The notes under the pieces were generated by a model. It saw nothing but the letters and a program-made list of their open reading frames with translations, was not told the DNA's origin and ran no database searches. The translations under genes were made by a program, and so were the position numbers. A stretch of DNA of 35,145 nt, from the IMG/VR virus record IMGVR_UViG_3300031566_000194, positions 1-35,145 of that record, one strand, 5' to 3'. Shown here in pieces: positions 751-35,047 of the stretch (position 1 is its first letter; each line of letters begins with the position of its first letter). This stretch comes from a virus.

Positions 751-1149
751 ATGGGAAAACAGCTTGACATGATAGGTGGGCCTAGCGCTGAGTTAGATAG
801 TAAGTATTCTAAAAAGATTGCTACCCCTATATATCAGGTCAAGGGTAGGAAACCCTTTTTAGTTGAGATGTTAAATGAAACAAAGGCTCTAGAATTAATT
901 AAAGAAATTGAGGAATCGGATATTACAGAAGAGGAAAAACACTTTTTAATCGAGGCGGCAAAGCGTCATAATGTATTTAATTATTCTAAGATAGCCGATT
1001 ATTATGCGCATTCAGGTCCGGAGATGCAGGCCCTTATGGAGCGGTCCGCCTTGGTAATAATTGACATAGGTAAGGCGATAGAGTGGGGGTATGTCAAACT
1101 CGCGGAAGAGATAGCAGCGCAGTATTTAGAGGATAGTAAAGATGAATGA
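751..1149 (+). CDS. Conserved phage-type protein of unknown function
   Basis: 132 residues, ATG preceded by AGGAG with 5-nt spacing. I do not recognise a named domain, though the layout looks like that of a conserved phage protein. After a polar lysine-rich N-terminus there is a helical stretch (residues about 45-70, rich in Glu/Lys, EEEKHFLIEAAKRH), then a histidine/tyrosine-rich segment (FNYSKIADYYAHSGPEMQ), and a hydrophobic strand (ALVIIDIGKAIEWGY). The gene is strikingly AT-rich against its GC-rich surroundings and overlaps the TAGT-like gene by 8 nt. The two probably arrived and are translated together. A role as partner of the modification enzyme next door is inference from adjacency only. 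Confidence 0.75.
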   Translation: MGKQLDMIGGPSAELDSKYSKKIATPIYQVKGRKPFLVEMLNETKALELIKEIEESDITEEEKHFLIEAAKRHNVFNYSKIADYYAHSGPEMQALMERSALVIIDIGKAIEWGYVKLAEEIAAQYLEDSKDE

Positions 1150-2008
1150 TAATTTTTGTGCGTTTATTCTATCGCACGGTCGGGCCGATAATGTAATTAC
1201 ATACCGGACCTTACGCAAGCAGGGCTATACTGGTAAAATCTATATTATAATTGATGACGAGGATAGCCAAGCCGATAAGTATTATGAGAATTATCCCGGC
1301 GAAGTAATAATGTTTAGCAAGGCGGATTATGAGGGTAAAATAGATAAAATGGATAATTTTGGCAATCGAAAGGTAATTGTTTATGCTCGTAATGCTTGTT
1401 GGGATATAGCGGAAAAGCTAGGTATAGAATATTTTATACAATTAGACGACGATTATACAGAAATACAATGTAAAGTAAACGAAAGGCTAGAATATAAATA
1501 CTCGCTCCCTAATATAGATAGTATATTTGATGTATTATTAAAGTATTATAAAAATATAAATGTTTTGTCGGTAGCTATGGCGCAGTGCGGAGATTATATC
1601 GGTGGGATAAAGGGTGGGGGCGGTGATATTATAAGAAAACAACCGAAGCGTAAATGCATGAATTCTTTTATATGTTGTACTAAAAACCGCTTCTGGTTTA
1701 GGGGAACTATGAATGAAGATGTAAATACATATATTGAACTAGGGGGTCGTGGAGGAGTATTTTTGACGATACCATATTTAGCGGTAAATCAAACCGCATC
1801 CCAGAAAGGCCGGGGAGGGATGACGGATATTTACTTGGGGAGCGGAACGTACCGGAAGAGTTATTATACAGTAATGTGCGCGCCCTCTTGCGCCCGTGTT
1901 GCGGTACTCCACGATAGATATAGTCGGTTACACCACTTAATATCATGGAATAATGCCGTACCATGTATTATAAGAGAGGGGCATAAAAAGAGTGGTTATG
2001 ACCTTTAA
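1142..2008 (+). CDS. TET-associated glycosyltransferase (TAGT)-like protein
   Basis: 288 residues. The N-terminal SHGRADN, the IIDDED strand-turn, the VYARNACWDIA helix and the FIQLDDDY strand form a GT-A-type nucleotide-sugar binding core. SHGR plus IDDED plus ARN plus LDDDY is the arrangement I associate with the TAGT/GREB1-like family, described in phages as predicted glycosyltransferases for modified DNA bases. DDD of LDDDY would be the metal/nucleotide-sugar motif; RGTMNEDVNTY later in the protein may be the catalytic acid region. No TET/JBP dioxygenase is visible in this window, so the base it would decorate is unknown. The gene is very AT-rich, overlaps the previous gene by 8 nt and the methyltransferase by 17 nt. 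An ordinary GT2 acting on glycans is the main alternative. Confidence 0.7.
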   Translation: MNDNFCAFILSHGRADNVITYRTLRKQGYTGKIYIIIDDEDSQADKYYENYPGEVIMFSKADYEGKIDKMDNFGNRKVIVYARNACWDIAEKLGIEYFIQLDDDYTEIQCKVNERLEYKYSLPNIDSIFDVLLKYYKNINVLSVAMAQCGDYIGGIKGGGGDIIRKQPKRKCMNSFICCTKNRFWFRGTMNEDVNTYIELGGRGGVFLTIPYLAVNQTASQKGRGGMTDIYLGSGTYRKSYYTVMCAPSCARVAVLHDRYSRLHHLISWNNAVPCIIREGHKKSGYDL

Positions 2009-3500
2009 CCACCGCCTTGGGGACGTGCGCGAGGTCCTGGCCGCCGAGCCGGACAACTCCTTCGACGCCCTCCTCTGCGACCCGCCCTACGGCCTCTCGT
2101 TCATGGGTAAGGAATGGGATACGGCGGTTCCCGGCGTGGAGGTCTGGCGCGAGGTGTACCGGGTGCTGAAACCGGGGGCCTTTGGGCTGGTATTCGGGGG
2201 GACGCGGACCTTCGACGTGCTGGGGGTGAGCCTGCGGCGGGCGGGGTTCGAGCGGCGGGACTGCCTCTGCTGGCTGTACGGGTCGGGGTTTCCGAAGTCA
2301 ACGGCGATTGGAAAAATGATTGACAAGGCGGCGGGGGCCGAGCGGGAGGTGGTGGGGCGGCGTATCCGTTTTGGAGACCGACGTGATTATGAAACGCGGG
2401 GCGAGTCGGTTTTTGCGGGCCAAGAAACGGGACAAGCAACCGCCCCCGCCACGCCGGAGGCCGCGACCTGGGAGGGTTATGGCACCGCGCTCAAGCCCGC
2501 CTGGGAGCCCGTCCTGGTAATTCGCAAGCCGCCGGAGGGAACCAACGCGGAGAACTGCCTCAAGTGGGGCACCGGGGCGCTGAACATTGACGGGGGGCGG
2601 ATAGCGGCCGAACCGTGGAGCCGGGACCGGCAAAATGATTTGTCAGATAAGGGTGATGGGTGGGGATTTAAAAACGAGATACAAGAATCGCACCCCGCCG
2701 GTCGCTGGCCCGCTAACGTGGTCCTCTCACACACGCCGGAGTGCCGGTTGAGGGGCGTCAAGCGGGTGAAGGGGGCCGGGTGGACGGAGGAGGACACGAC
2801 TGCTTCTACTTCGTTTTTTAGGCGTGAGGGGGTGGGGAGCAAACACTACGTCGACGCCGACGGCCTGGAAACGGTGGAGGACTGGGATTGCTCGCCAGAT
2901 TGCCCGGTACGGCTCCTGGACGAGCAGAGCGGGGAGAGGCCAAGCGGGGGGGCGGGTGAACCGGAGACCCAGACGGCTAATTGTTACTGGAAGTTTCCTC
3001 GCCGGGTGGGGGGCCAACAGCAGCCGAGCACCGGCGGGGCCTCGCGCTTCTTTTACTGCGCTAAGGCGTCCCCGGCGGAACGGAACGCGGGGTGCGAGGG
3101 GCTGGAGGATGTAAGCTGCGGAACGGGTGCGCTCCGAGACGGCTGTCGCGGGAAAATTGCCCGCAACCACCACCCGACGGTAAAACCCGTTGACCTCTGC
3201 CGCTGGCTGGCGGCCCTCCTCCTGCCGCCCGCAAGGGAGCCGTCGGCTCACCCCCGCCGCCTCCTCGTCCCCTTCGCCGGGTCGGGCTCCGAGATGATAG
3301 GGGCGCACCTGGCGGGCTGGGATAGGATAGTCGGGATTGAATTGAACCCGGAGTACGTTGAAATCCAACGCCGCCGGTGCGCGTGGTGGGCCGAGCACGG
3401 GGCCGCCGGGCCGGACCCCGCCGTGGTGCTCGCCGAGGGGAAGGCCCGCGACGAGGAACGCGCCGCCGGGCAACTGGAAATGCTGGAGGTGGACGAGTGA
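1992..3500 (+). CDS. DNA methyltransferase, N6-adenine/N4-cytosine type (DPPY)
   Basis: 502 residues. The catalytic motif CDPPYGLSFMGKEWD lies near residue 30 and the SAM-binding motif PFAGSGSEMIGAHL lies near residue 435, followed by IVGIELNPEYVEIQRRR. The order catalytic motif, target-recognition region, SAM motif is the beta-class arrangement of amino-methyltransferases acting on adenine N6 or cytosine N4. The long middle part (about residues 110-400) contains a typical KPAWEPVLVIRKP segment and, near residue 390, HHPTVKPVDLCRW, both seen in phage orphan methyltransferases. No restriction endonuclease is adjacent, so self-protection or regulation is likelier than an R-M system. Start is GTG 1992 (10 nt after GAGAGGGG); ATG 1998 is an alternative. 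GC content jumps back up here relative to the upstream gene. Confidence 0.92.
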   Translation: MVMTFNHRLGDVREVLAAEPDNSFDALLCDPPYGLSFMGKEWDTAVPGVEVWREVYRVLKPGAFGLVFGGTRTFDVLGVSLRRAGFERRDCLCWLYGSGFPKSTAIGKMIDKAAGAEREVVGRRIRFGDRRDYETRGESVFAGQETGQATAPATPEAATWEGYGTALKPAWEPVLVIRKPPEGTNAENCLKWGTGALNIDGGRIAAEPWSRDRQNDLSDKGDGWGFKNEIQESHPAGRWPANVVLSHTPECRLRGVKRVKGAGWTEEDTTASTSFFRREGVGSKHYVDADGLETVEDWDCSPDCPVRLLDEQSGERPSGGAGEPETQTANCYWKFPRRVGGQQQPSTGGASRFFYCAKASPAERNAGCEGLEDVSCGTGALRDGCRGKIARNHHPTVKPVDLCRWLAALLLPPAREPSAHPRRLLVPFAGSGSEMIGAHLAGWDRIVGIELNPEYVEIQRRRCAWWAEHGAAGPDPAVVLAEGKARDEERAAGQLEMLEVDE

Positions 3501-3573
3501 ACGCTGTGCTCCGTGGTGATGGGGTGAGACTCCCCGCCGCGTTCGGTTCATGCCCGGTAAACGGAGCCGAGGT

Positions 3574-3615
3574 GGCCGGCCCTCGACGGGGTGATACTCC
3601 TCCCCCAAGCCGGCC
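3574..3615 (+). repeat. Stem-loop after the methyltransferase gene
   Basis: GGCCGGC (3574-3580) pairs with GCCGGCC (3609-3615). A short inner GGGG/CCCC pairing at 3588-3591 with 3602-3605 is possible. There is no T-run, so it is not a classic intrinsic terminator; it may stabilise the 3' end of the upstream message. The 3501-3676 gap otherwise holds the repeated hairpin element at 3630. A 40-codon GTG frame at 3497-3619 is not supported. Confidence 0.4.
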
Positions 3616-3629
3616 CTAGAATGCCCTAC

Positions 3630-3658
3630 TTGCCCGAAAACAACCGTATTTTACGGTT
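3630..3658 (+). repeat. Repeated intergenic hairpin element, copy 1
   Basis: TTGCCCGAAAAC (3630-3641) is followed by AACCGTA (3642-3648), loop TTT, and TACGGTT (3652-3658), a 7-bp stem. The first 19 bases match a second intergenic site at 19984 with one difference (TTGCCCGAAAACRACCGTA). It lies just upstream of a strong Shine-Dalgarno (GGAGGA at 3665) for the small gene at 3677. The TTG at 3630 also opens a 16-codon frame beginning M-P-E-N-N-R. Confidence 0.6.
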
Positions 3659-3676
3659 AAAACCGGAGGAAAAGAA

Positions 3677-3856
3677 TTGAGCAGGGGTAAACTACTATCC
3701 ACAACGGTAATAGCCAGAGAAATAGCCTGGAGGGTATGCTTGGAGGTAGCCCAGACGCTTGACTCATGTTGGTATTATATTTTTGGTCCGATTTTGCGGG
3801 TGGCGTCGGCGATAATCCGTGCTATGTTGCGGATGGATTTAAGGAGGTGGCGGTGA
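3677..3856 (+). CDS. Small amphipathic/membrane-leaning protein, TTG start
   Basis: 59 residues from TTG 3677, preceded by GGAGGA at 3665-3670 with 6-nt spacing, which is strong evidence for translation. The sequence is basic at both ends with a hydrophobic middle (WYYIFGPILRVASAIIRAML), so it may associate with membrane as one segment. The stop overlaps the next start (GTGA at 3853), and the SD of the next gene (AAGGAGG) lies inside its last codons, so the pair looks translationally coupled. No family recognised. A role in expression or export of the downstream secreted protein is only a guess from coupling. Confidence 0.55.
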   Translation: MSRGKLLSTTVIAREIAWRVCLEVAQTLDSCWYYIFGPILRVASAIIRAMLRMDLRRWR

Positions 3857-4431
3857 GATACGTTGACTTGTTCCGGGTGATGCTGGCGGCGGTGGCCGGG
3901 ATTGTCCTCGGCCCGTGCCGGGCGGCGGCGGTTGAACTGTTTTGGGATGATTCTACAAGCCGGGAGGTCGTTGTCGAAGGGTATAATCTGGCGGTGCTCT
4001 TCTGCGATGCCCCCGAAGGGACGCCGGGGGATACTGGCGGGCAGCCTGGGATTGTGTCGAGCTTCAAGGTCCTGTTCGACTGGTTTAACCCGGTGTACCG
4101 GCCCGAACTTTATATCTACTCGGTAGATGGGGACCCAGGGGAACCGCTGGCTGGCCCGTTGAACTATACCGACTCTGAGTGGCGCACCTGGCTAGTTTTA
4201 ACGCTCGACGAGCCGGTGGAGGTTCCCGGGGAGTTCTACATCCTGGTGAAGCCGGGGAGCAGCCGGTTGACGAAGGACGGGACGCTTGACTGGGGTATCC
4301 ATCATAGCCGGTACTACGAAGCCGGAGCCTGGCGGCAGTGGGATGATGATTTGCGTATCCGGGTCGAGTGGGAACCCCAGGAGCCGTCCGTCGAGGCGGT
4401 GTCCTGGGGGTGGATAAAGGCGGGTCGGTGA
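3853..4431 (+). CDS. Secreted beta-sandwich protein with signal peptide
   Basis: 192 residues from GTG 3853, chosen because AAGGAGG lies 6 nt upstream and the start overlaps the previous stop. An earlier in-frame ATG at 3766 sits inside the preceding small gene and would bury the signal peptide. The N-terminus is a typical export signal: MRYVDLFR, then a hydrophobic run (VMLAAVAGIVLG), then CRAAA as a plausible cleavage site. The mature part reads as a beta sandwich: ELYIYSVDGDPGEPL, then WLVLTLDEPVEVPGEFYILV, then a late YYEAGAWRQWDDDLRIRVEW. This is like the carbohydrate-binding/adhesin-like modules in secreted proteins of uncultured bacterial phyla. It would be exported by the host and may alter the cell surface. 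It could be a moron gene. The function is not established. Confidence 0.65.
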   Translation: MRYVDLFRVMLAAVAGIVLGPCRAAAVELFWDDSTSREVVVEGYNLAVLFCDAPEGTPGDTGGQPGIVSSFKVLFDWFNPVYRPELYIYSVDGDPGEPLAGPLNYTDSEWRTWLVLTLDEPVEVPGEFYILVKPGSSRLTKDGTLDWGIHHSRYYEAGAWRQWDDDLRIRVEWEPQEPSVEAVSWGWIKAGR

Positions 4432-4694
4432 TGGCGAAAAACAAAAAGCGGAAACACCCTCGGGCTCGATACCGCTGTGGAAATTGCCGCAAGCCAATTT
4501 ACAACCCGAAGCCCGACGGCGTTGTGCCGGTTGACCGGGCGGCGTGTTTCCCCCGGCTCCGCGAACTCTGTAAACCCGGTTCGCAGCCGTGCCCGTGTTG
4601 GGTTCCTCTGTGTGAGGAATGCCTTGACACACTGGACCTGACTAGCGGCCGGTTTATCGCAAGGCCGGACTTGGCCCCGAGGGGGGAAGGTTGA
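4431..4694 (+). CDS. Small zinc-ribbon protein
   Basis: 87 residues, ATG overlapping the upstream TGA. A basic N-terminus (MAKNKKRKHPRARYR) precedes CGNC (residues about 16-19), then further cysteines including PCPCWVPLCEECL near residues 53-65. The CxxC...CxxC pattern suggests a structural zinc site and nucleic-acid or protein binding. No specific family can be named. It overlaps the metallopeptidase gene by 4 nt. Confidence 0.65.
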   Translation: MAKNKKRKHPRARYRCGNCRKPIYNPKPDGVVPVDRAACFPRLRELCKPGSQPCPCWVPLCEECLDTLDLTSGRFIARPDLAPRGEG

Positions 4695-5035
4695 GGCGGA
4701 AGACAATTATGGTAAACAAAAACCCGTTTGGCGTGCCCGATATGATAGAGATATTGGGGGCGAGATATACCATAAAAACGGTAGAGAAGCTGAATAAGGC
4801 GGATGATGTGGGGGAATGCAATATAATGAATAAAACGATAACATTAAAATACGCGGGTAATATATGCCGGGAATCTTACAGGGACACGCTGATACATGAG
4901 TTGACCCACGCCTTGTTAGATAGATTGGGGTTGAATAATGTTATACCGCGTAATGTCTCGGAGGTACTGTGCGACGCGCTGGGGCAGCAGATATTTATAC
5001 TAATGTCAAATAATAAATGGCTATTAAAGGTATAG
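4691..5035 (+). CDS. Small HExxH zinc metallopeptidase-like protein
   Basis: 114 residues from TTG 4691, which overlaps the upstream stop; ATG 4709 is an equally workable start giving a protein 6 residues shorter. HELTHALLD (residues about 69-77) is the HExxH zinc-binding helix; a further acidic site in VSEVLCDALGQQI may give the third ligand. The small size and topology resemble phage ImmA/IrrE- or SprT-like proteins. In the ImmA/IrrE type such enzymes cleave repressors; a SprT-like role in DNA-protein turnover is also possible. The gene is AT-rich compared with its neighbours, like the island at 390-2008, suggesting separate acquisition. Confidence 0.75.
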   Translation: MRRKTIMVNKNPFGVPDMIEILGARYTIKTVEKLNKADDVGECNIMNKTITLKYAGNICRESYRDTLIHELTHALLDRLGLNNVIPRNVSEVLCDALGQQIFILMSNNKWLLKV

Positions 5036-5039
5036 GTAT

Positions 5040-6065
5040 ATGAAACGGGAGACAGTTAAGCGTGGGCGCGGAAAACGGGAACGGCTGGTAACTCTGGCCG
5101 TTCCCGGCGGTGATGAGGTCCAGCCGAACTACACCGGCCAGCCCCTTGACGGGAAGAGCCTACTTGTCACCCGGTACGGGGGTGGGGGAGACCACTTGTT
5201 CTTGACGGCGGTGGTCGCCGAGTTAAAACGCCGATACCCGACGGCGCGGGTGAGCATCGGGGGGGCGAAACCGTGGAGAGAAGTCTGGCGGGGTTCGGGG
5301 CTCCTGGAGGCTTACATACCCTACCCGGTCCCGGTGGTCGAGATTCAGAAGCGGGACTACTACCTGAACTTCGAGGGGACGTTGGAGGGGCGGAAGGAGC
5401 CGGGCCAGGAGGAAGTCCCCCGGCGGGAAAACGTCTATGACCTGTTCTTCGACCTCGCCGGGATAGGGGACGCGCCTGACAGCCGGAAGATTCCAGTTCT
5501 CGGGACGACCCCGGCGGGAGAGGCTTACGCCGACCGCGTGTTAAAGGAGTGCCGGCGCCCGGTTATCTGCTACCAGTGGGAGGCGTCGGTCGCGCATCGG
5601 ACGTACCCCCACAGTCTCTCGCTCAAGCTCCTGTTCGAGTTGGTAAAGCTCGGCCAGGTGCTCCTTCTTGGGAAGAGGCTCCCGAAGCCCGAGCACGTTC
5701 CCCGAGGGGTGTTCGGGTTGAATACCCCAAGGCTGGAGCAGGCGTTCGGGGTACTTGCCCGGTCGGACCTGCTCATCGCCCCGGACTCGATGTTCGTTCA
5801 CGCGGCGGCGGCCTTCGGGGTGCCGACGGTGGCAATTTACGGGCCGATAGCGGCGGAGGCCAGGGTCAGGACGTATCCCAAGTGCTACCCGGTGGAGGGG
5901 ACGGCGGACTGCGGGCCATGTTATACTCACTCCGTAAGGCCCTGTTCTACCCCAAGTTACGAGCGGCAAATGGAGACGGGGAAGGTGCTCGGGGTCTGGT
6001 GTAAGCGGATGATTATCGGGACCGATGTCGTGATGCGAACCGTGAAGAAGGTGCTCCGTGGATGA
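5040..6065 (+). CDS. GT9 (heptosyltransferase-like) glycosyltransferase
   Basis: 341 residues. SLLVTRYGGGGDHLFLTAVV near residue 40 is the N-terminal Rossmann start of GT-B enzymes of the ADP-heptose:LPS heptosyltransferase (GT9) type. APDSMFVHAAAAFGVPTVAIYGP near residue 247 is the C-terminal nucleotide-sugar site with the conserved D-x-x-x-x-H-x-A-A pattern. GT9 enzymes transfer heptose or related sugars from an ADP-activated donor. Near the end GPCYTHSVRPC, with two cysteines, resembles the cysteine-containing tail of many phage and bacterial GT9 proteins. It leads a five-gene block with two more glycosyltransferases and a methyltransferase, so it probably acts on a multi-sugar decoration of virion, host surface or DNA; which one is not shown. 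Confidence 0.85.
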   Translation: MKRETVKRGRGKRERLVTLAVPGGDEVQPNYTGQPLDGKSLLVTRYGGGGDHLFLTAVVAELKRRYPTARVSIGGAKPWREVWRGSGLLEAYIPYPVPVVEIQKRDYYLNFEGTLEGRKEPGQEEVPRRENVYDLFFDLAGIGDAPDSRKIPVLGTTPAGEAYADRVLKECRRPVICYQWEASVAHRTYPHSLSLKLLFELVKLGQVLLLGKRLPKPEHVPRGVFGLNTPRLEQAFGVLARSDLLIAPDSMFVHAAAAFGVPTVAIYGPIAAEARVRTYPKCYPVEGTADCGPCYTHSVRPCSTPSYERQMETGKVLGVWCKRMIIGTDVVMRTVKKVLRG

Positions 6066-6393
6066 CTGGGAAACGCTTGAAGAGTACCTTGAAAAGCTCG
6101 ATGGCCAAATCGCCGAGCTTGAGGAGAGATTCCCTGGGCCGGGGTACGCCAAGGTGACGATTAAGCCGATTGTTGACGCCATGTGGCAAGACCCGGCTCC
6201 CCTCTGGCGGTTAAGGCTTCTCCATTACTGGTACATGAAGAAGTGCGGCCGGGCACCTCGGGTAATTGAAGATTTTATGCACCGGCTGGGGGAGGACGAA
6301 AGGTTAGATGAAATCCCGATTGAGGTCCTGATACGATACATAATTCGGCGGTTTCCCCCGGTGAGGGAGGGTGAAGTTGAAGCGAAGGTCTAA
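6058..6393 (+). CDS. Unknown helical protein within the glycan cluster
   Basis: 111 residues from GTG 6058, overlapping the glycosyltransferase stop by 8 nt. The N-terminus is acidic and coiled-coil-like (WETLEEYLEKLDGQIAELEE). The middle is aromatic and basic (WRLRLLHYWYMKKCGR), and the end is predicted helical (DEIPIEVLIRYIIRRF). No family recognised. Tight overlap on both sides indicates co-translation with the glycosyltransferase and the methyltransferase. A scaffold or adaptor role is possible but not evidenced. Confidence 0.7.
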   Translation: MDDWETLEEYLEKLDGQIAELEERFPGPGYAKVTIKPIVDAMWQDPAPLWRLRLLHYWYMKKCGRAPRVIEDFMHRLGEDERLDEIPIEVLIRYIIRRFPPVREGEVEAKV

Positions 6394-7105
6394 GTGCCCG
6401 CTGTGCGGAAACGCGGCCCGGAAGTTTTTCAGGGCACCCCGGCCCGGTGAGACGTTCTTTCGCTGCCAGGCTTGCGGGCTGGTGTACCAGACTCTCGTCG
6501 CCTCACGCTCGGAGCAAGCGTTGTGGTATAATCAGTCGTGGAGAGCCCCGTCGGATGCAGTCGAGCAACAGAACCGGGACTACGCTCACAAGTACCTCAA
6601 GCCGAAGGTCAAAGGGATGCAGCTCTTAGAGATAGGGTCGAACTCGGGGGCGATGCTGGAGGAGCTGAGAGGCTTCGGTTACCAGGTCCTCGGGGTGGAA
6701 CCGGCGGCGGACCTGGCGGCGTTGCGGCCCGACCTCCCCGTGGTAGTAGGATTTTTCGAGACGGCGCCCGAGCTCGAGGGGCGCCTTTTCGACGTGATAG
6801 TGAGCTTTCACGTCCTGGAGCACGTCGAGTTCCCGGTGAGGTTCGCCAAGCTCGTGCGGCGTCGGTTGAAGCCGGGGGGTATCTGGTTCAACTTCATGCC
6901 GAATCTCGACACTTGGCTTGAGGAGCGGGATGGCGTGGCGAAGTTCCGGGAGCGGTGGATTCACGTCGAGACGAAGCACGTCCAGGAGCATATCCAGTTT
7001 TTCAACGCGGCGACGGCGCAACTCCTTTCGCGGATTGCAGGGTTCGACTTATTCAAGGCTGGGTTCCAGGGGTGCGACCTCTGGTTTTACGCGGCGGTGA
7101 ACTGA
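6377..7105 (+). CDS. Zinc-ribbon class I SAM methyltransferase
   Basis: 242 residues from TTG 6377, chosen because GGGAGG lies 6 nt upstream; GTG 6371 directly abuts that SD. An N-terminal zinc ribbon (CPLCGN ... FFRCQACGLVY) precedes a Rossmann methyltransferase: motif I LLEIGSNSGAMLEEL near residue 82, the acidic strand VLGVEP, motif IV FDVIVSFHVLEHVEFP, and LKPGGIWFNFMPNLD. The ribbon-plus-domain layout is that of Methyltransf_12/23-type enzymes found in sugar and glycan loci, where they methylate sugars or lipids; a SAM-dependent sugar methyl-capping enzyme would fit between glycosyltransferases. The acceptor cannot be read from the sequence. Confidence 0.85.
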   Translation: MKRRSKCPLCGNAARKFFRAPRPGETFFRCQACGLVYQTLVASRSEQALWYNQSWRAPSDAVEQQNRDYAHKYLKPKVKGMQLLEIGSNSGAMLEELRGFGYQVLGVEPAADLAALRPDLPVVVGFFETAPELEGRLFDVIVSFHVLEHVEFPVRFAKLVRRRLKPGGIWFNFMPNLDTWLEERDGVAKFRERWIHVETKHVQEHIQFFNAATAQLLSRIAGFDLFKAGFQGCDLWFYAAVN

Positions 7106-7818
7106 TGCGCGTTGTCGCTGTGATGCCGATATACGGGAGACCCCAAGTGACCGGGTTCAGCCTCCAAGCGGCGAAGGCCCTCCGCGGGGTTGACCGGCTA
7201 ATTGTAGTCGGGTCAACGGCCCAGGACGAGGATACCGCCCGCCGCGCTGGGGTGGAGTTCAAGCGGCACCCTAACAAGCCTCTCGGGGGGAAGTGGCAGT
7301 CGTGCTTTTCGGAGGCGTTGTGGGGCGGGGCTGACCGGGTGCTCTTCCTCGGGAGCGATGACTGGTGGGAGCCGGACCTGTTGAAGCACCTTGAACCCTA
7401 CGCCGAATTCGACCTTGTGGCGCCGCACTTCTGGGGTGTCCTGGACGTTGAGAACCGGAAGGCGTACTACCAGCACTATAAAATCCGGTATGACGGGGCC
7501 GGAACCGGGCGGCTCTACAATGCCCGCTTTATCCGGGACCGGCTAGGGAATACCCTTTACAAGCCCGACGCGCCGTTGAGGGGGATGGACTGGTACGCGA
7601 CCCGGCGGATTGAGGAGGCGGGGGGAAGGGTAATTACCAGCCCCGAGGCTCGGGTCGTGAGTCTCAAGGGGTGCTCAGAAGGGCAGCAGATTTACCAGGT
7701 CGGCGAGCTGGTAGACTCAGGGAATATCATCACGGAACGGGTGCCGCTTAAGACGGCTTGGGTGGCGCACGTACTTCACGAGTGGGAAAAATGGGTCTCC
7801 AAGACCTCACAATCATAA
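7105..7818 (+). CDS. GT-A fold glycosyltransferase (GT2-like)
   Basis: 237 residues, ATG overlapping the upstream TGA. The N-terminal VVAVMPIYGRPQVT strand, the DRLIVVGSTAQDEDTARRAG second strand-helix, GGKWQSCFSEALWGGADRVLFLGSDDWWEPDLL (with DD as the metal site near residue 89) and a late GMDWYATRRIEEAGG segment make up a GT-A nucleotide-diphospho-sugar transferase. An extended upstream frame from 6955 merely overprints the methyltransferase. It overlaps the next glycosyltransferase by 28 nt. Donor and acceptor are unknown. It could also add a sugar to a tail or capsid protein. Confidence 0.82.
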   Translation: MRVVAVMPIYGRPQVTGFSLQAAKALRGVDRLIVVGSTAQDEDTARRAGVEFKRHPNKPLGGKWQSCFSEALWGGADRVLFLGSDDWWEPDLLKHLEPYAEFDLVAPHFWGVLDVENRKAYYQHYKIRYDGAGTGRLYNARFIRDRLGNTLYKPDAPLRGMDWYATRRIEEAGGRVITSPEARVVSLKGCSEGQQIYQVGELVDSGNIITERVPLKTAWVAHVLHEWEKWVSKTSQS

Positions 7819-8501
7819 TCCCCACGGCCGGCCGACGCTGGTCGGAGTTGGAGCGGTGCCTGGATTCCATCTGGGACCAGGTGGACCTCCCCTACGCCGT
7901 GACGGTGGTCCACAACCACGAGCGGCCGATTCCCAAGGTGATACAGGACCACGAGGTCGGCCACCTCCGGGTTGAGGGGCCGATTTACCGCGGCTTCAAC
8001 GCCGGGGTGAGGTCCGCCCCGACGAAGTGGGTGATGCTCCTCGGGGACGATGACCGGCTACCGCACGACACCTGGCTCAAGGGGATTGCCCGGTACTTGC
8101 GGCCGGGGGCGCCGTGGAACTACGTTTACCACCTAGTCATCCCGGTCGAGCGCAAGGGTGAGGTTCGCCGGGGAACCCTCCCGAGCTTCCAGGGCCGGGA
8201 AAGTGAGCTTCCTGGTGCTATACTTGCTCACGGACGCGGGCTCGTTTCACACTCGGGGGCGGCGTACCTCAAGAGCCTGCACCGGACGGTCGGGTGGTAT
8301 CCCGAGCACCTGCGGAGCCAGGGGGATACCTGGTGGATGTGCAAGGCGGCGTTGAAGGGGGCTCTCAAGGTGAAGGCTTACCAGGGCGACGGGCCGATAG
8401 TCGGGGCCGATGATAAAGAGCGCGTGTCAGGGGTGAAGGACGAGCGGGCGCGGACGTTTAAGCTGATTGAGAGGATGGCGGAACGGTATGGGAAAAGGTA
8501 A
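7791..8501 (+). CDS. GT2 family glycosyltransferase
   Basis: 236 residues from ATG 7791; the earlier in-frame GTG at 7758 gives a less typical N-terminus. LTIIIPTAGRRWSELERCL is the GT2 opening strand and helix, VMLLGDDDRLPHDTWL near residue 85 is the DxD-type metal/nucleotide motif, and RSQGDTWWMCKAA near residue 180 is a candidate acceptor/catalytic segment. This is the third glycosyltransferase in a row, and the stop overlaps the short frame at 8488. Together the cluster looks able to build a short, possibly methylated glycan. Confidence 0.85.
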   Translation: MGLQDLTIIIPTAGRRWSELERCLDSIWDQVDLPYAVTVVHNHERPIPKVIQDHEVGHLRVEGPIYRGFNAGVRSAPTKWVMLLGDDDRLPHDTWLKGIARYLRPGAPWNYVYHLVIPVERKGEVRRGTLPSFQGRESELPGAILAHGRGLVSHSGAAYLKSLHRTVGWYPEHLRSQGDTWWMCKAALKGALKVKAYQGDGPIVGADDKERVSGVKDERARTFKLIERMAERYGKR

Positions 8502-8688
8502 TAAATCCCGTGATTTGGAGAGGGCGGCCGGGAAAGGGGTGGGCGATAAACGGAGAGTCGCTCACCCTGGCGGGGAAGGAAACAGCCGGGGTGGATACAT
8601 GATGCCTAGTATTCACCCCGGCGTTGGGGGGAAGGGGATAACACCGGCCCGTAAAAATGCCGCCTTTGTGAAGGTGGCGGGGGACTAG
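8488..8688 (+). CDS. Doubtful 66-residue basic ORF overlying structured RNA
   Basis: An ATG frame that overlaps the glycosyltransferase stop by 14 nt. The product is glycine/lysine/arginine-rich and without recognisable domains. The same DNA folds into three long stem-loops (8536-8568, 8585-8622, 8659-8678), which would account for its base composition better than protein coding. It may be a real small basic protein, but I favour a structured untranslated leader. Confidence 0.3.
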   Translation: MGKGNKSRDLERAAGKGVGDKRRVAHPGGEGNSRGGYMMPSIHPGVGGKGITPARKNAAFVKVAGD

Positions 8689-8752
8689 GTGAAAGGTACA
8701 AGGCCGTGTACCTCTTCTCAGGTTCTAAGATAATACAGCGGCAAAACGCTGT
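8536..8752 (+). ncRNA. Structured leader: five tandem stem-loops before the packaging operon
   Basis: Five hairpins follow one another. H1: GGGGTGGGCGA 8536-8546 with TCGCTCACCCT 8558-8568 (11 bp, two G-U). H2: GCCGGGGTGGATAC 8585-8598 with GTATTCACCCCGGC 8609-8622 (14 bp, one G-U, loop ATGATGCCTA). H3: GCCGCCTT 8659-8666 with AAGGTGGC 8671-8678 (8 bp, one G-U, loop TGTG). H4: AGGTACA 8694-8700 with TGTACCT 8707-8713 (7 bp). H5: ACAGCG 8735-8740 with CGCTGT 8747-8752 (6 bp). The run ends 18 nt before the first packaging-operon start at 8771. No tRNA or known riboswitch consensus is recognised. It may be a cis-regulatory leader, an ncRNA, an RNA-processing region or a packaging signal; the role is inference. 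Confidence 0.5.
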
Positions 8753-8770
8753 CAAACAGGATGGAGTTTT

Positions 8771-9016
8771 ATGAAGGCCAAGATTAAGGTGGGCACACCG
8801 ACCCTGGATGAAGTGCAGGTACTTTTTGAGCGGTACAGGGACCTACAACGTGAAAAAAAGCTTGCGATGAATGAATACGATGAGATGGCCGCGGCCCTTC
8901 ACCCTAAACGGGATGTCCTTGGGGACCTCGGACGTAAGACGCGGGATGCCTGGGATAGTTACACCTCCGCTTTTAACGCTTGGGCTGTGTCCCAGGTTAA
9001 ACGGGGGGATGTGTGA
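8771..9016 (+). CDS. Small helical protein preceding the terminase genes
   Basis: 81 residues, ATG with a modest ATGGAG SD at 8761. Predicted almost entirely helical with heptad-like charge (FERYRDLQREKKLAMNEYDE), as in small proteins encoded before terminase subunits. No family recognised. It overlaps the small terminase start by 4 nt (GTGA), so the two are probably coupled. It follows the five-hairpin leader directly and so is the first gene that leader could regulate. Confidence 0.7.
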   Translation: MKAKIKVGTPTLDEVQVLFERYRDLQREKKLAMNEYDEMAAALHPKRDVLGDLGRKTRDAWDSYTSAFNAWAVSQVKRGDV

Positions 9017-9561
9017 AAATAGGCCAAGCCAAGCGTAAGGCCGTAATTGAACGTCTAGCGGCGGGCCAAACGATAACGGCGGCGGCAGAGGCGGAAGGTA
9101 TCGCTCGCCGGACGGTGGTTTATTGGCTTGCTGAGGATGATGATTTTAGGGGGCGGGTTGACCAACGGAGGCAGGAACACCTTGACCAGTTGACAACGCT
9201 CCTTTCAATCGCCGGACCACAGGCGGCTCAATTCTTGACTGACGTGGCGGCTGGAGTGCAGAAGGCAACAACGACAGAACGGCTCCGGGCTGCGAATTAC
9301 CTTTTAGAGCACCTTGGCCGGTGGAGTGCATCGTCTGAGGTATTAGTCTGGGCGCAACGCGCAAGTGAGGCTTTGCAGAAAGCTCTTTCGAAACTGGTCC
9401 CCGAGGATGCCTTTGAAGTGCGGACGGTGTTTACAAATGAACTTTATAGAGCGCGCGTCCCAACTGATAGCGTGGCGCCTTTCACCCGTGAGGGCGGGCG
9501 GCGTAGGGAAGGCCCCGGAGCAGGTGGGGATAATCCTGACACCCACTCAGGCGGAGATTAG
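9013..9561 (+). CDS. Terminase small subunit candidate
   Basis: 182 residues from GTG 9013. A helix-turn-helix near the N-terminus (TITAAAEAEGIARRTVVYWL, residues about 20-39) is the type used by small terminase subunits to recognise the packaging site. It is followed by a helical core (QLTTLLSIAGPQAAQFL, ERLRAANYLLEHLGRW) suited to oligomerisation. The assignment rests on the HTH plus position immediately before the large subunit. The last 40 residues are low-complexity (rich in Gly and Arg) and are overprinted by the large-subunit N-terminus in another frame. Confidence 0.75.
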   Translation: MKIGQAKRKAVIERLAAGQTITAAAEAEGIARRTVVYWLAEDDDFRGRVDQRRQEHLDQLTTLLSIAGPQAAQFLTDVAAGVQKATTTERLRAANYLLEHLGRWSASSEVLVWAQRASEALQKALSKLVPEDAFEVRTVFTNELYRARVPTDSVAPFTREGGRRREGPGAGGDNPDTHSGGD

Positions 9562-10741
9562 GGCGCTGCTGGAGCAGGGAAACAAGGCAATCGTGCCGAA
9601 AGGGAGACGCGCCGGCGGAACCCGCCTCGGCGGTCACCGTTTCGTCGAAGCCCTCCAGGATAAAGAAGGGGGCCGGGGGTATCTCCTAGTCGCCCCGACC
9701 CTTGAAACCTGCCGCCGTGTGTTCGATGAGACCAAGGATATTGCCCGCGCTTGCGCACTGCACCTGGGCGAGAAGCAATCCCCCTACCCCACGCTCTACT
9801 CCCCGACGGGTTCCTGGCTCACCGCTCGCTCCGTGACGAGTTCCGTTGACCTCGGCCTCCAGCTTCGAGGGTTGGGGAAGCATATCTACGGGGTGATGGT
9901 GGACGAGGGGGCGTTCCTGCCGCCTTGGGCTTGGAAGGTTATCCGCCCGGTGATGACGGATAACGACGCCTGGCTCTACTTCACCGGGACGACCCACGGC
10001 GAGGGTCTCTTTAAGATGCTCTACGACTGGGGGCTAGACCCGGGGCGCCCGGATTACTACTCCCGGCGAATGCCGACCAGCTCTAATACGTTCCTCTCGG
10101 AGGAACAGATACGGGAGTTGACCGAGGACGTGCTACCCGAGGACCGGCCGGCGGAACTGGACGCCCTGTTCGTTCCCCGGTCGGGCCTCGTGTTTATCCA
10201 CTTCCGCCGGGATGTCCACACGCGGGTCGCCTTCACCGAGGGCCAACCGATGTACGGGGTGGACTGGGGGTTCACGAATCCGGCTGTGGTCCTGGCGATG
10301 GTCCAGGGCGGGGACCGGGTACAGGTGCTCGGGGAGTTCTACCGCTCGGGGTGTACCCCGGACCAGCACGTCGAGGCGGCGAAGGCGATGCAGGAGCGGT
10401 ACGGGCGGGGGTTGTGCTACTGCGATCCGTCGAGGCCCGAGATGATTACGGCGTTCCAGCGGGCGGGGATACCGGCAACCGGGGCGAAGAATGAACTGCT
10501 CCCTGGGCTCGACCACCTCCGCAAGCTCCTCGGGAACTACGAGGGGGTGGAACCCCGGCTTTTCGTGTCCCCGGAGTGTACGAACCTGCTCCGGGAGATG
10601 GCTGAATACGCTTATCCTGAGCGGGGCGGCGAGGAGCCGAGAAAAGAAAACGACCATGCAATTGACAGTTTACGGTATGCGTGCTATTCTTCTCGTGGTG
10701 GTGTTTCGCGTCAGGTGAGGTCTAGGAGGTACAGGGAATGA
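9437..10741 (+). CDS. Terminase large subunit (ATPase/nuclease)
   Basis: 434 residues from ATG 9437; GTG 9488 and GTG 9524 are alternatives, all inside the small-subunit gene. The ATPase is marked by a Q-like LTPTQAEIRALL, a deviant Walker A (KGRRAGGT), Walker B with catalytic Glu (YGVMVDEGAF) and a coupling motif (FTGTTHGEG). The RNase H-like nuclease is marked by YGVDWGFTNPAVVLAM, CYCDPSRPE and NDHAIDSLRYACY, whose aspartates would hold two metals. It cuts concatemeric DNA and pumps it into the prohead through the portal encoded next door. Walker A lacks the usual GKT/GKS and instead has arginines before GGT, a deviation seen in many phage terminases. Confidence 0.95.
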   Translation: MNFIERASQLIAWRLSPVRAGGVGKAPEQVGIILTPTQAEIRALLEQGNKAIVPKGRRAGGTRLGGHRFVEALQDKEGGRGYLLVAPTLETCRRVFDETKDIARACALHLGEKQSPYPTLYSPTGSWLTARSVTSSVDLGLQLRGLGKHIYGVMVDEGAFLPPWAWKVIRPVMTDNDAWLYFTGTTHGEGLFKMLYDWGLDPGRPDYYSRRMPTSSNTFLSEEQIRELTEDVLPEDRPAELDALFVPRSGLVFIHFRRDVHTRVAFTEGQPMYGVDWGFTNPAVVLAMVQGGDRVQVLGEFYRSGCTPDQHVEAAKAMQERYGRGLCYCDPSRPEMITAFQRAGIPATGAKNELLPGLDHLRKLLGNYEGVEPRLFVSPECTNLLREMAEYAYPERGGEEPRKENDHAIDSLRYACYSSRGGVSRQVRSRRYRE

Positions 10742-31088: not shown

Positions 31089-31117
31089 TTGACAAACTGG
31101 AAAAACTAGGCTATAAT
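31089..31117 (+). promoter_or_regulatory. Consensus sigma70-type promoter
   Basis: TTGACA at 31089-31094, a 17-bp spacer, and TATAAT at 31112-31117: a perfect match to the consensus -35/-10 at the best spacing. A transcript would begin near 31124 and run to the small genes from 31174. Such a strong, host-type promoter suggests early expression by host RNA polymerase. Confidence 0.88.
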
Positions 31118-31173
31118 ATGGTCGAAAGGTTGAGGCGCGGAAAAAGAAAAACCGGAACCTAACAGGAGGAGAG

Positions 31174-31467
31174 ATGGATGTGAATAAGGCGGCAATACAC
31201 CGGAGCGCGTTGTTAGAGTGGAGCCTTGCCGAGAGGGAAGTCTTAACCCGGCAGCTCCGCACGACGGCTGAAACCCTGGCGTCCCAGGCCGATGCTATTG
31301 ACTTTGCCGCAGGCGCCCGTAGCTGGGATGACGTAAGGACGGCCCTTGCCCGTATCCTTGCTCGGCTGGAAAGTACCCCCACCGCCCCTCCGCTGGTTGA
31401 GAAACTGAATGAGGCTTACCACAAGGTGAGTATGCAATCCGTGTTGTTAAAAGCCTACGAAAGCTAG
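31174..31467 (+). CDS. First gene of the promoter-driven operon, unknown
   Basis: 97 residues, ATG after the AACAGGAGGAGAG cassette. Mostly helical (ALLEWSLAEREVLTRQLRTT, VRTALARILARLES). No family recognised. Being first after a perfect promoter it should be abundant and early; host-takeover function is possible but unproven. The stop is followed by the 31476 hairpin. Confidence 0.7.
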   Translation: MDVNKAAIHRSALLEWSLAEREVLTRQLRTTAETLASQADAIDFAAGARSWDDVRTALARILARLESTPTAPPLVEKLNEAYHKVSMQSVLLKAYES

Positions 31468-31475
31468 TAGCCGAG

Positions 31476-31512
31476 ACGGGGGCCTAGCCCCCGTCGCCCG
31501 GATAAACCGGGC
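31476..31512 (+). repeat. Intercistronic double hairpin module, copy 1
   Basis: ACGGGGGC 31476-31483 pairs with GCCCCCGT 31487-31494 (loop CTA), followed by GCCCGG 31496-31501 with CCGGGC 31507-31512 (loop ATAAA). The same order of two hairpins recurs at 31814-31854. The first arms are identical in both copies. Confidence 0.65.
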
Positions 31513-31524
31513 CTGACGAGGCTT

Positions 31525-31544
31525 AACTAACAGGAGGAGAGATG
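31525..31544 (+). promoter_or_regulatory. Shared translation-start cassette (four copies)
   Basis: AACAGGAGGAGAGATG precedes starts at 31174, 31542, 31886 and 32083. The copies at 31542 and 32083 are identical over 27 bases extending upstream into GAGGCTTAACTAACAGG. The cassette places AGGAGG about 5 nt from ATG, giving strong and equal translation of these small genes. Confidence 0.75.
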
Positions 31545-31808
31545 GCAATAGGAACGATTCGCAGGGCTACCGACGAGGACTACGCGAGGCTGAATGCCGC
31601 CGCGCTTCGGTTCGCCAAGCTGCACAACCTCAAACTGATGGCGGATGAAACCGGGGTGCCCGCGTACGCCGCGGTGGAAACCGAGGTGGACTGGTCGGGA
31701 AATCGGCACCTCCGCCAGTTATGGCTTCGGTGCTTCCGCCGGGCCACCCGCGAACCGCAGGCTGATACCGTGGCCTACGGTTACGTGGGGTGGTCTGCGA
31801 AATCATAG
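31542..31808 (+). CDS. Unknown small protein of the early operon
   Basis: 88 residues with the shared SD cassette. It opens with a helical basic stretch (YARLNAAALRFAKLHNLKL) and has tryptophans later (VDWSGNRHLRQLWLRCFRR). No family recognised. The hairpin module follows its stop. Confidence 0.7.
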   Translation: MAIGTIRRATDEDYARLNAAALRFAKLHNLKLMADETGVPAYAAVETEVDWSGNRHLRQLWLRCFRRATREPQADTVAYGYVGWSAKS

Positions 31809-31813
31809 CCGAA

Positions 31814-31854
31814 ACGGGGGCTTAGCCCCCGTCCGACCGGGGATGGTTTCCCGG
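31814..31854 (+). repeat. Intercistronic double hairpin module, copy 2
   Basis: ACGGGGGC 31814-31821 pairs with GCCCCCGT 31825-31832 (loop TTA); CCGGG 31837-31841 pairs with CCCGG 31850-31854. Flanks on both sides of the first hairpin also match copy 1 (TAGCCGARACGGGGG). Confidence 0.65.
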
Positions 31855-31885
31855 CGTTGAATAAGGCAGACCAACAGGAGGAGAG

Positions 31886-32071
31886 ATGATAGTAGAAAGA
31901 GAAAGCGAATTTGCTAAGTATCGGATATTAAAAACCAATGCAATTTTTAGGGAGGGTCAGATTGTAACTGTTTTTAGAACGAGTGAGAACGGGAAGGCCG
32001 CAGTTGAAGAGAAACCGGGCTCACCGTTCCGTTGGCTATTGTCTTGGGATAAGCTAGAGAGGCTTAACTAA
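31886..32071 (+). CDS. Unknown small protein, AT-rich
   Basis: 61 residues with the shared SD cassette. The N-terminal half is AT-rich and shows a beta pattern (YRILKTNAIFREGQIVTVFR). It ends R-L-N at a CTTAACTAA that matches the sequence before the 31542 gene, suggesting the upstream gene once had the same kind of end. Function unknown. Confidence 0.65.
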   Translation: MIVERESEFAKYRILKTNAIFREGQIVTVFRTSENGKAAVEEKPGSPFRWLLSWDKLERLN

Positions 32072-32082
32072 CAGGAGGAGAG

Positions 32083-32331
32083 ATGATAGACGTAACGGAG
32101 AAGATGGTGCAGGGCTGGACCTGCGGGGACCTTGAGGCGTTCCTGGATGCTCGGGAAACCGGCTGCTACGGCTTTTTCTGCGGATTCCGGGCGCAGTTCG
32201 AGGAGAGGGCGCTGGAGGCATTCGAGCTTCTGGCCGCCAGGTGCGGTAAGATGCGCGTTGTGGTGGAGAAGATGAGCGTCGGGGATGAGGCCGTGATGCT
32301 GTACCCCGGCGACGGGAAAATTCAGCCGTAA
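32083..32331 (+). CDS. Unknown small protein of the early operon
   Basis: 82 residues, fourth gene with the shared SD cassette. Helical centre (LEAFLDARETGCYGFF, RALEAFELLAARCGK) and a basic end (KMRVVVEKMSVGDEAVML). No motif I can name. Confidence 0.68.
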   Translation: MIDVTEKMVQGWTCGDLEAFLDARETGCYGFFCGFRAQFEERALEAFELLAARCGKMRVVVEKMSVGDEAVMLYPGDGKIQP

Positions 32332-33758: not shown

Positions 33759-34737
33759 GACGCGCCCGACGGTCCTGCACCAGACGGGAGTAAACGACCT
33801 GCGGACCTGCGCCCGAAAATACTACAACTCCCAGGTGCTCGGGATCGAGCAGCGCGAGGTCTCGGACGCGCTCAAGGACGGCCAGGCGCTCCACAAGGCG
33901 CTCGAATCCGCCGCCGGCGAGCCCGACCTGGACAGCCAGCGGATGGCCGCCTTCGCCCAGGTCGCCGCGGACCTCGGGGTCGGGAGGATACAGCCCCTCA
34001 ACGCGGCACGAGTCCGGGCGATGCTCGTTGGGTATTTCGCCCGGTGGGGGAAGCTCCAGACGTGGGCCAAGGAATACACGGTCGAGGGGCCGATTCCAGG
34101 GGTGGAGGGGATGACCTTCACCGGCCGGATTGACCGGGTGGTCCAGGTCCCCGGCGGGTTCGCCGTCGTGGACTACAAGACGGCCTCGAAGGTGGACGGG
34201 AGCTACCTCGAAAGTCTCCAGCGTCAACTCCAAGGGCCGCTTTACGCTCACTACCTCGAACAGGAGCGGGGGATGGAGGTCGTCGAGATAATCTACGACC
34301 TGATAGTCAAGCCCCCGTCGGGGATGGTTCCGAAGATGGTAGACGTGGACCACGACAACGAGGTGCCGGGGTCGCATCAAATGAAAAGCGGCCCGGCGAA
34401 GGGTAAGTGGCGGGAGAGCCGCCGTGAGAACATGGACGAGTTTGAGCGCCGGTTACAGGGGCTCTACCAAGACCGCCTCGACGAGATGATTCTACGCCCG
34501 AGCTTGCTTATCACGCGGGAGCACCGGGCCGACGCGCTGAATGAGCTGACCTTAGCGGCCCGTGAGGTGTTGTGGCGGCTGGACACGGGGAACTGGGGCG
34601 AGAACCGCCGGGCCTGCGAGGGCACGTTCTACCCTTGCCCGTTCCGCCAGCTCTGCTACTCGCGGTACTCACCGCTTGTCATGCAGAACGAGTACCGGCG
34701 GCGCGAGGAAACCCTTGACACGGCTGAGGAAATTTAG
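33745..34737 (+). CDS. PD-(D/E)XK nuclease, Cas4/RecB-like, probable Fe-S
   Basis: 330 residues from GTG 33745. The nuclease core is visible: FTGRIDRVVQVPGGFAVVDY with D and then DYKTA (D-x-K), followed by a helix with QRQLQGPLYAHYLEQ (Q motif). N-terminal C (LRTCARKYYN) together with ACEGTFYPCPFRQLC (C-x6-C-x5-C) would make the four-cysteine Fe-S cluster as in Cas4 and AddB, though the usual spacing before the last pair is C-x2-C-x5-C. Such enzymes process DNA ends in recombination and replication. No helicase or CRISPR array is adjacent here. Confidence 0.8.
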   Translation: MNLPETRPTVLHQTGVNDLRTCARKYYNSQVLGIEQREVSDALKDGQALHKALESAAGEPDLDSQRMAAFAQVAADLGVGRIQPLNAARVRAMLVGYFARWGKLQTWAKEYTVEGPIPGVEGMTFTGRIDRVVQVPGGFAVVDYKTASKVDGSYLESLQRQLQGPLYAHYLEQERGMEVVEIIYDLIVKPPSGMVPKMVDVDHDNEVPGSHQMKSGPAKGKWRESRRENMDEFERRLQGLYQDRLDEMILRPSLLITREHRADALNELTLAAREVLWRLDTGNWGENRRACEGTFYPCPFRQLCYSRYSPLVMQNEYRRREETLDTAEEI

Positions 34738-34750
34738 TAAAGTCTGCGTA

Positions 34751-34845
34751 GGGTAGGGTGGGGCGAAAAAGTTTAAGCTGGCCAGCGCCCCGCCGTCAAC
34801 CGCCCCTCCCTACCCAGGAAGGCAACAGACGGCGGGGCTTTATTT
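34751..34845 (+). ncRNA. Interlocking stems: attenuator or pseudoknot candidate
   Basis: GGGTAGGGTGGGGCG (34751-34765) pairs with CGCCCCTCCCTACCC (34801-34815), 14 of 15 positions. GCCCCGCCGTC (34787-34797) pairs perfectly with GACGGCGGGGC (34828-34838), followed by TTTATTT (34839-34845). The order A-B-A'-B' means that they either form a pseudoknot or exclude each other; GGGGCG in A can also pair with CGCCCC in B. The second stem with its T-rich tail is terminator-like and ends just before the SD for the 34859 gene. Confidence 0.55.
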
Positions 34846-34858
34846 AACCGGAGGAGAC

Positions 34859-35047
34859 ATGACTGCAGCCGACCTCGTGAAAGAAATCCAGGACCTCATC
34901 TTCCAGGGCACGACACAGCCCACCGCCGAAGTCGAGGTAGACATACCGGCTGACTTCATAAACCGCGAAGAATACGGGGCGGGATTCAAGATAGGGCGGG
35001 TATTTGCTCCCGCCCACGGACAAGTCTTATACCTGGAGGAGAAGTGA
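34859..35047 (+). CDS. Small unknown protein after the interlocking stems
   Basis: 62 residues, ATG with GGAGGAG upstream. Helical start (ADLVKEIQDLIFQG), then beta strands (AEVEVDIPADFI, FKIGRVFAPAHGQVLYLEE). No family named. The structured region directly upstream could attenuate its transcription. It overlaps the next gene by 4 nt. Confidence 0.65.
   Translation: MTAADLVKEIQDLIFQGTTQPTAEVEVDIPADFINREEYGAGFKIGRVFAPAHGQVLYLEEK

Follow-up and report, generated by a model that had tools for sequence, protein, structure and literature searches.

The window analysed here (the whole stretch of virus record IMGVR_UViG_3300031566_000194, 35,145 nt, from an uncultured phage) carries its densest run of perfect hairpins in a 269-nt non-coding gap that separates the last glycosyltransferase gene from the first open reading frame (ORF) of the packaging operon. 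This hairpin run is probably part of the late mRNA, and we tentatively interpret the gap, at somewhat less than an even chance, as an element of the late (+ strand) mRNA that is structured and acts in cis at the packaging-operon boundary, most likely as a barrier in mRNA processing or stability. The gap and its neighbours are arranged as follows:

7758–8501, + strand: glycosyltransferase gene (Glycos_transf_2, Pfam match)
8502–8770, + strand: non-coding gap of 269 nt (ORF list, coding score and a fold energy z of −4.4 for 8500–8780)
8757–8773, + strand: Shine-Dalgarno-like AGGATGGAG and the ATG of the 81-aa ORF, of ordinary accessibility
8771–9016, + strand: 81-aa ORF of unknown function, the first after the hairpin run
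9013–9561, + strand: small terminase subunit, helix-turn-helix, Sf6-like (family searches)
9365–10741, + strand: large terminase subunit (ORF list and family searches)

All genes neighbouring the gap lie on the + strand, and the large terminase is followed by a Mu-type portal fused to a MuF domain, a Mu-like protease and a capsid protein of the lambda E type. The listed GTG of the large terminase gene overlaps the small subunit gene by 197 nt and is therefore probably too far upstream. The first-pass annotation placed the end of the hairpin run 18 nt before the first packaging gene; the distance is correct (8752 to the ATG at 8771), but the gene found there is the 81-aa ORF, whose best PHROG and Pfam matches (E of 0.11 and 0.058) are without significance at any cut-off, and the small terminase gene begins only at 9013. 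Upstream of the packaging genes, 1142–8501 (+) is occupied by a glycosyltransferase/methyltransferase cassette with a TET-associated glycosyltransferase (PF20691, E 3e-33), a DNA methyltransferase, glycosyltransferases of families 2 and 9 and a methyltransferase, a content which suggests that the phage DNA is hypermodified and glycosylated.

The stems of 11, 14, 8, 7 and 6 bp that had been claimed for this region are all present at the positions given for them, and the description of the second, 14 bp with a single G-U pair and a 10-nt loop, is exact:

8537–8547/8557–8567, + strand: stem-loop 1 (S1), 11 bp, 9-nt loop; mean pairing probability 0.99
8585–8598/8609–8622, + strand: stem-loop 2 (S2), 14 bp with one G-U pair, 10-nt loop AUGAUGCCUA; mean pairing probability 0.999
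8659–8666/8671–8678, + strand: stem-loop 3 (S3), local, 8 bp; cannot form together with the 3′ strand of helix P1 (below)
8694–8700/8707–8713, + strand: stem-loop 4 (S4), 7 bp; longer in the full fold
8735–8740/8747–8752, + strand: stem-loop 5 (S5), 6 bp, GCAAAA loop

S1 reaches 12 bp if the terminal G-U pair 8536/8568 is counted. The run is real and non-random by two kinds of measurement. The five best perfect hairpins of the gap have a summed length of 48, which ranks first among all 269-nt segments on both strands (the runner-up, at 44, overlaps coding sequence), and when the gap was dinucleotide-shuffled 1000 times, no shuffle contained a stem of at least 14, two stems of at least 11 or the same summed length. 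The minimum free energy (MFE) of 8536–8752 is −96.4 kcal/mol as compared with −73.9 ± 4.7 kcal/mol after shuffling (z of −4.77; 0 of 200 shuffles). In the genome-wide fold scan the segment at 8561 (+) was 6th of 876, beneath some coding segments and a hammerhead region near 31.7 kb; since energy alone is thus matched or beaten elsewhere in the window, the stem run is the stronger argument. Against the RNA reading, improbability is the one sign that selection maintains the structure.

The region had been described as “five tandem stem-loops”; the stems exist, but a row of independent hairpins is probably not how the region as a whole prefers to fold. When 8502–8770 is folded with its full flanks, a predicted long-range closing helix, P1, displaces S3, whose mean pairing probability is then 0.02:

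8507–8527, + strand: 5′ strand of P1 (MFE pairs, prediction only)
8660–8681, + strand: 3′ strand of P1 (MFE pairs)

P1 has 17 pairs with internal loops in the predicted MFE structure of the whole gap, and it reaches back to 8507, outside the 8536–8752 limits that had been set for the run. The predicted full fold is a branched domain closed by P1 and holding S1 and S2, then an extended S4, then S5. Predicted energies are −112.3 kcal/mol with P1 and −108.6 kcal/mol with S3 forced, and because the two folds differ by merely 3.7 kcal/mol a switch between them is possible; the P1 and S3 forms may both exist, the difference being too small to pick one. With P1 formed, the element would begin at about 8507, directly past the glycosyltransferase stop codon, and ribosomes terminating there might disrupt P1, its outermost helix. 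By eye, loop 2 may also form a pseudoknot (GCCUA with UAGGU at 8689–8693), a match that is within chance expectation.

The first three stems overlie an open frame on the same strand:

8488–8688, + strand: 66-codon open frame (ATG at 8488, stop at 8688), judged not to be a gene from codon score, GC3 and shuffles

It seems very improbable that a genuine small gene occupies this frame, with the stems as its by-product. It is open, has an ATG and overlaps the end of the upstream gene with its start, but, as the first-pass annotation held, it is weak. Its codon score of −0.08 (0.23 for in-frame and −0.39 for off-frame windows) lies between coding and off-frame values, since about 94% of in-frame windows score higher and so do 14% of off-frame ones; its GC3 is 0.59 versus 0.76 in genes; and a stop-free run as long as the 61 codons within the gap occurs in 38% of shuffles. 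Protein and family searches gave no credible relative of the 66-residue product, and the frame was rejected as a protein-coding gene on codon use and conservation.

The five stems contain four non-Watson-Crick positions, every one a G-U when read on the + strand and none an A-C, which, with four positions only, is weak evidence for an RNA read from the same strand as the neighbouring genes, as against a palindrome in DNA. The gap could instead be a DNA-level element, a cos- or pac-like site of terminase recognition and packaging initiation in which the inverted repeats act as duplex dyads; many phages have their cos sites just upstream of the small terminase region. Its position directly upstream of the ORF and the small terminase gene agrees with this, as does the fact that the dyads also fold on the − strand, although the + strand folds better. 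However, in addition to having G-U rather than A-C imperfections, S1 and S2 are long looped hairpins unlike short protein-size dyads, the rest of the window repeats no motif of the gap except in short matches at chance level, and packaged DNA ends are not visible in the contig. We consider a DNA site unlikely, though the first in probability among the alternatives.

A scan of 8300–9100 found no promoter-like site on the + strand, in keeping with an element that lies inside a longer transcript, and the terminator scan found no intrinsic terminator around the run. Both results count against a separate trans-acting or packaging RNA, with its own transcript or processed from another (such as a regulatory RNA or an analogue of pRNA), even though a closed multibranch fold with 3′ hairpins recalls self-contained non-coding RNAs; we place this possibility second among the alternatives and likewise regard it as unlikely. 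The gap is similar in size to the phi29 pRNA and also lies near packaging functions, but pRNA is known solely from phi29-type packaging, where it serves the motor, whereas this phage has a TerS/TerL pair; with no Rfam match in addition, the gap was rejected as a phi29 packaging RNA. Staphylococcal phages do release a structured RNA, cabRNA, from the terminase region (PMC10686824), and it was the only structured RNA of that region to surface in a literature search for RNA motifs before terminase genes. The gap element would be like it in being a structured RNA of the terminase region, but cabRNA arises within coding sequence of terS/terL, and what defines it is that it binds a CBASS cyclase (PMC10686824).

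The − strand does have a promoter-like sequence at the end of the run:

8727–8755, − strand: promoter-like site TTGACA-17-TATCTT (10/12 consensus match only), facing away from the packaging genes

A − strand RNA of about 65 nt could run from this site (8755–8727) through a mismatched, terminator-like hairpin to an ATTTTTA near 8655, but promoter-like sites as good as this one occur inside genes too, the fold of the stretch is ordinary (z of −1.2), and the putative terminator stem is imperfect and was missed by the terminator scan; this is the least probable of all the explanations that we consider.

Nascent hairpins might alternatively bind RNA polymerase and cause read-through of the long late operon, in the manner of a put-like, RNA-only antiterminator. 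The put RNA of HK022 is about 70 nt long, consists of two adjacent bulged stem-loops near the early promoters, binds the zinc-binding domain of the RNA polymerase β′ subunit and suppresses termination (PMC9378689). The gap heads a long late operon on the + strand and offers, in what would be a phage transcript, two strong neighbouring stem-loops of similar total size (S1 plus S2, about 86 nt), but these stems are uninterrupted and 17 nt apart where those of put are bulged and side by side, put lies downstream of early promoters and not amid late genes, and there was no Rfam match at E values up to 5. We rank such an antiterminator third among the alternatives, and also as unlikely; on shape (S1 and S2 continuous, with 17 nt between them) the gap was rejected as a member of the HK022 put family.

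Under the preferred reading, a processing or stability barrier at the operon boundary, the P1 helix would close a domain with two very stable hairpins, and two smaller hairpins would end just before the packaging-operon ribosome-binding site, so that a ribosome-free double-stranded block would separate the glycosyltransferase cassette from the packaging operon. A double-strand-specific nuclease would cut this block, or the block would halt exonucleases, and the packaging mRNA might thereby gain stability and be expressed independently of the genes before it. The Shine-Dalgarno sequence of the packaging operon would remain ordinarily accessible (accessibility at the start of the 81-aa ORF is 0.43, against a mean of 0.39 for the other starts tested). 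In this scheme we infer transcription of the + strand, cleavage or protection, and any effect on expression; an RNase III site is not recognisable from sequence alone. Intercistronic mRNA hairpins of phage T7 are processed by RNase III, and the gap has, as predicted structure, the non-coding double-stranded RNA between co-directional genes that characterizes hairpins of this type. It is like the T7 hairpins in having long, ribosome-free double-stranded hairpins between co-directional genes and close before a gene start, and unlike them in having more stems, and branched ones; the likeness is one of description, processing being putative here. RNA-level processing of transcripts is plausible in this phage because it also has two hammerhead-type elements between small genes (below).

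No known RNA consensus had been recognised in the run, and the Rfam 15 covariance models bear this out: 8400–8900 gave chance matches only, the best at an E of 0.97 and far under the gathering threshold. A descriptor for HDV-like ribozymes (nested double pseudoknot; home-made and of uncalibrated sensitivity) had 0 matches on either strand. Searches for homologous loci, which may omit records very near the window's own, found relatives of the large terminase at 13 loci in IMG/VR (best segments 24–39% identical, with one of 47% over 41 residues) and 2 loci in genome_contigs (27–31%); the small terminase and portal had no relatives in the collections searched, and the capsid search gave a single match of 24 residues. 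For the TET-associated glycosyltransferase, 80 loci were kept (47–53%). Besides the glycosyltransferase, just two kinds of match turned up in the fetched loci as a whole: the terminase, at 53 loci, and a methyltransferase, weakly and at 2 loci. Judged from these comparisons, the phage is an orphan without a close relative in the collections searched.

The gap itself showed, by blastn against the fetched loci, similarity no better than chance; blastn found one 36-nt chance match in phages and none in plasmids. A single-sequence covariance model (R1) run over 97 sources and 39 whole records returned the window itself only, and because a model built from one sequence is insensitive, such negatives say little about distant homologues. 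As a DNA pattern in IMG/VR, loop 2 had 3 matches, all without the flanking stems, and two other 18-mer patterns of the gap had none. Among the upstream gaps of at least 130 nt in the 53 distant terminase-bearing loci, 0 of 10 were unusually structured (lowest z of −1.5), so a structured gap is not general to such packaging operons. The run thus keeps the standing of a candidate undescribed structured RNA; that it represents a new class of phage RNA of about 250 nt, in which a closing helix can switch against a local hairpin and which, placed first in the packaging operon, controls or joins in DNA packaging, we think distinctly improbable. Should the gap act in processing or regulation, it would illustrate how expression of the late packaging genes is kept apart from that of the sugar-modification genes upstream in an uncultured phage. 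Should relatives prove to conserve it, a new family of phage RNAs adjoining terminase genes would be at hand, in a neighbourhood where host immunity can also sense structured RNAs, as it does cabRNA. At present it is one well-formed, unexplained example.

Other putative RNA elements are present toward the end of the window. Two type II hammerhead ribozyme-like elements, 31469–31527 and 31807–31875 (+), flank a small gene at 31542–31808; the downstream one scores 39.9 bits, above the Rfam threshold, and the upstream one 28.3 bits (E 0.001), below it. The upstream copy keeps CUGACGA and has GAGA in place of GAAA, while the downstream copy keeps GAAA and has UUGAAUA in place of CUGAUGA; since each deviates from the core, at different places, their activity is doubtful. 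Gene-flanking hammerheads have been described in prophages (PMC3088659). An identical ribosome-binding block, AACAGGAGGAGAGATG, occurs four times in 31150–32085 (+) before successive small genes, and two of its copies, one preceded by a hammerhead and the other not, have 27 identical nt in common (GAGGCTTAACTAACAGGAGGAGAGATG). Upstream of these blocks lies a perfect sigma-70 promoter, TTGACA-17-TATAAT (31089–31117). Finally, a leader at 34715–34858 (+) with a fold z of merely −0.9 and no Rfam match has a promoter-like TTGACA-17-TAAAGT, then an 11-bp hairpin (GCCCCGCCGTC/GACGGCGGGGC) and then CTTTATTT. Within it an upstream GGGTAGGGTGGGGCG could pair with CGCCCCTCCCTACCC inside the 11-bp hairpin, and the leader, which precedes the ORF at 34859, resembles an attenuator of the terminator/antiterminator kind.
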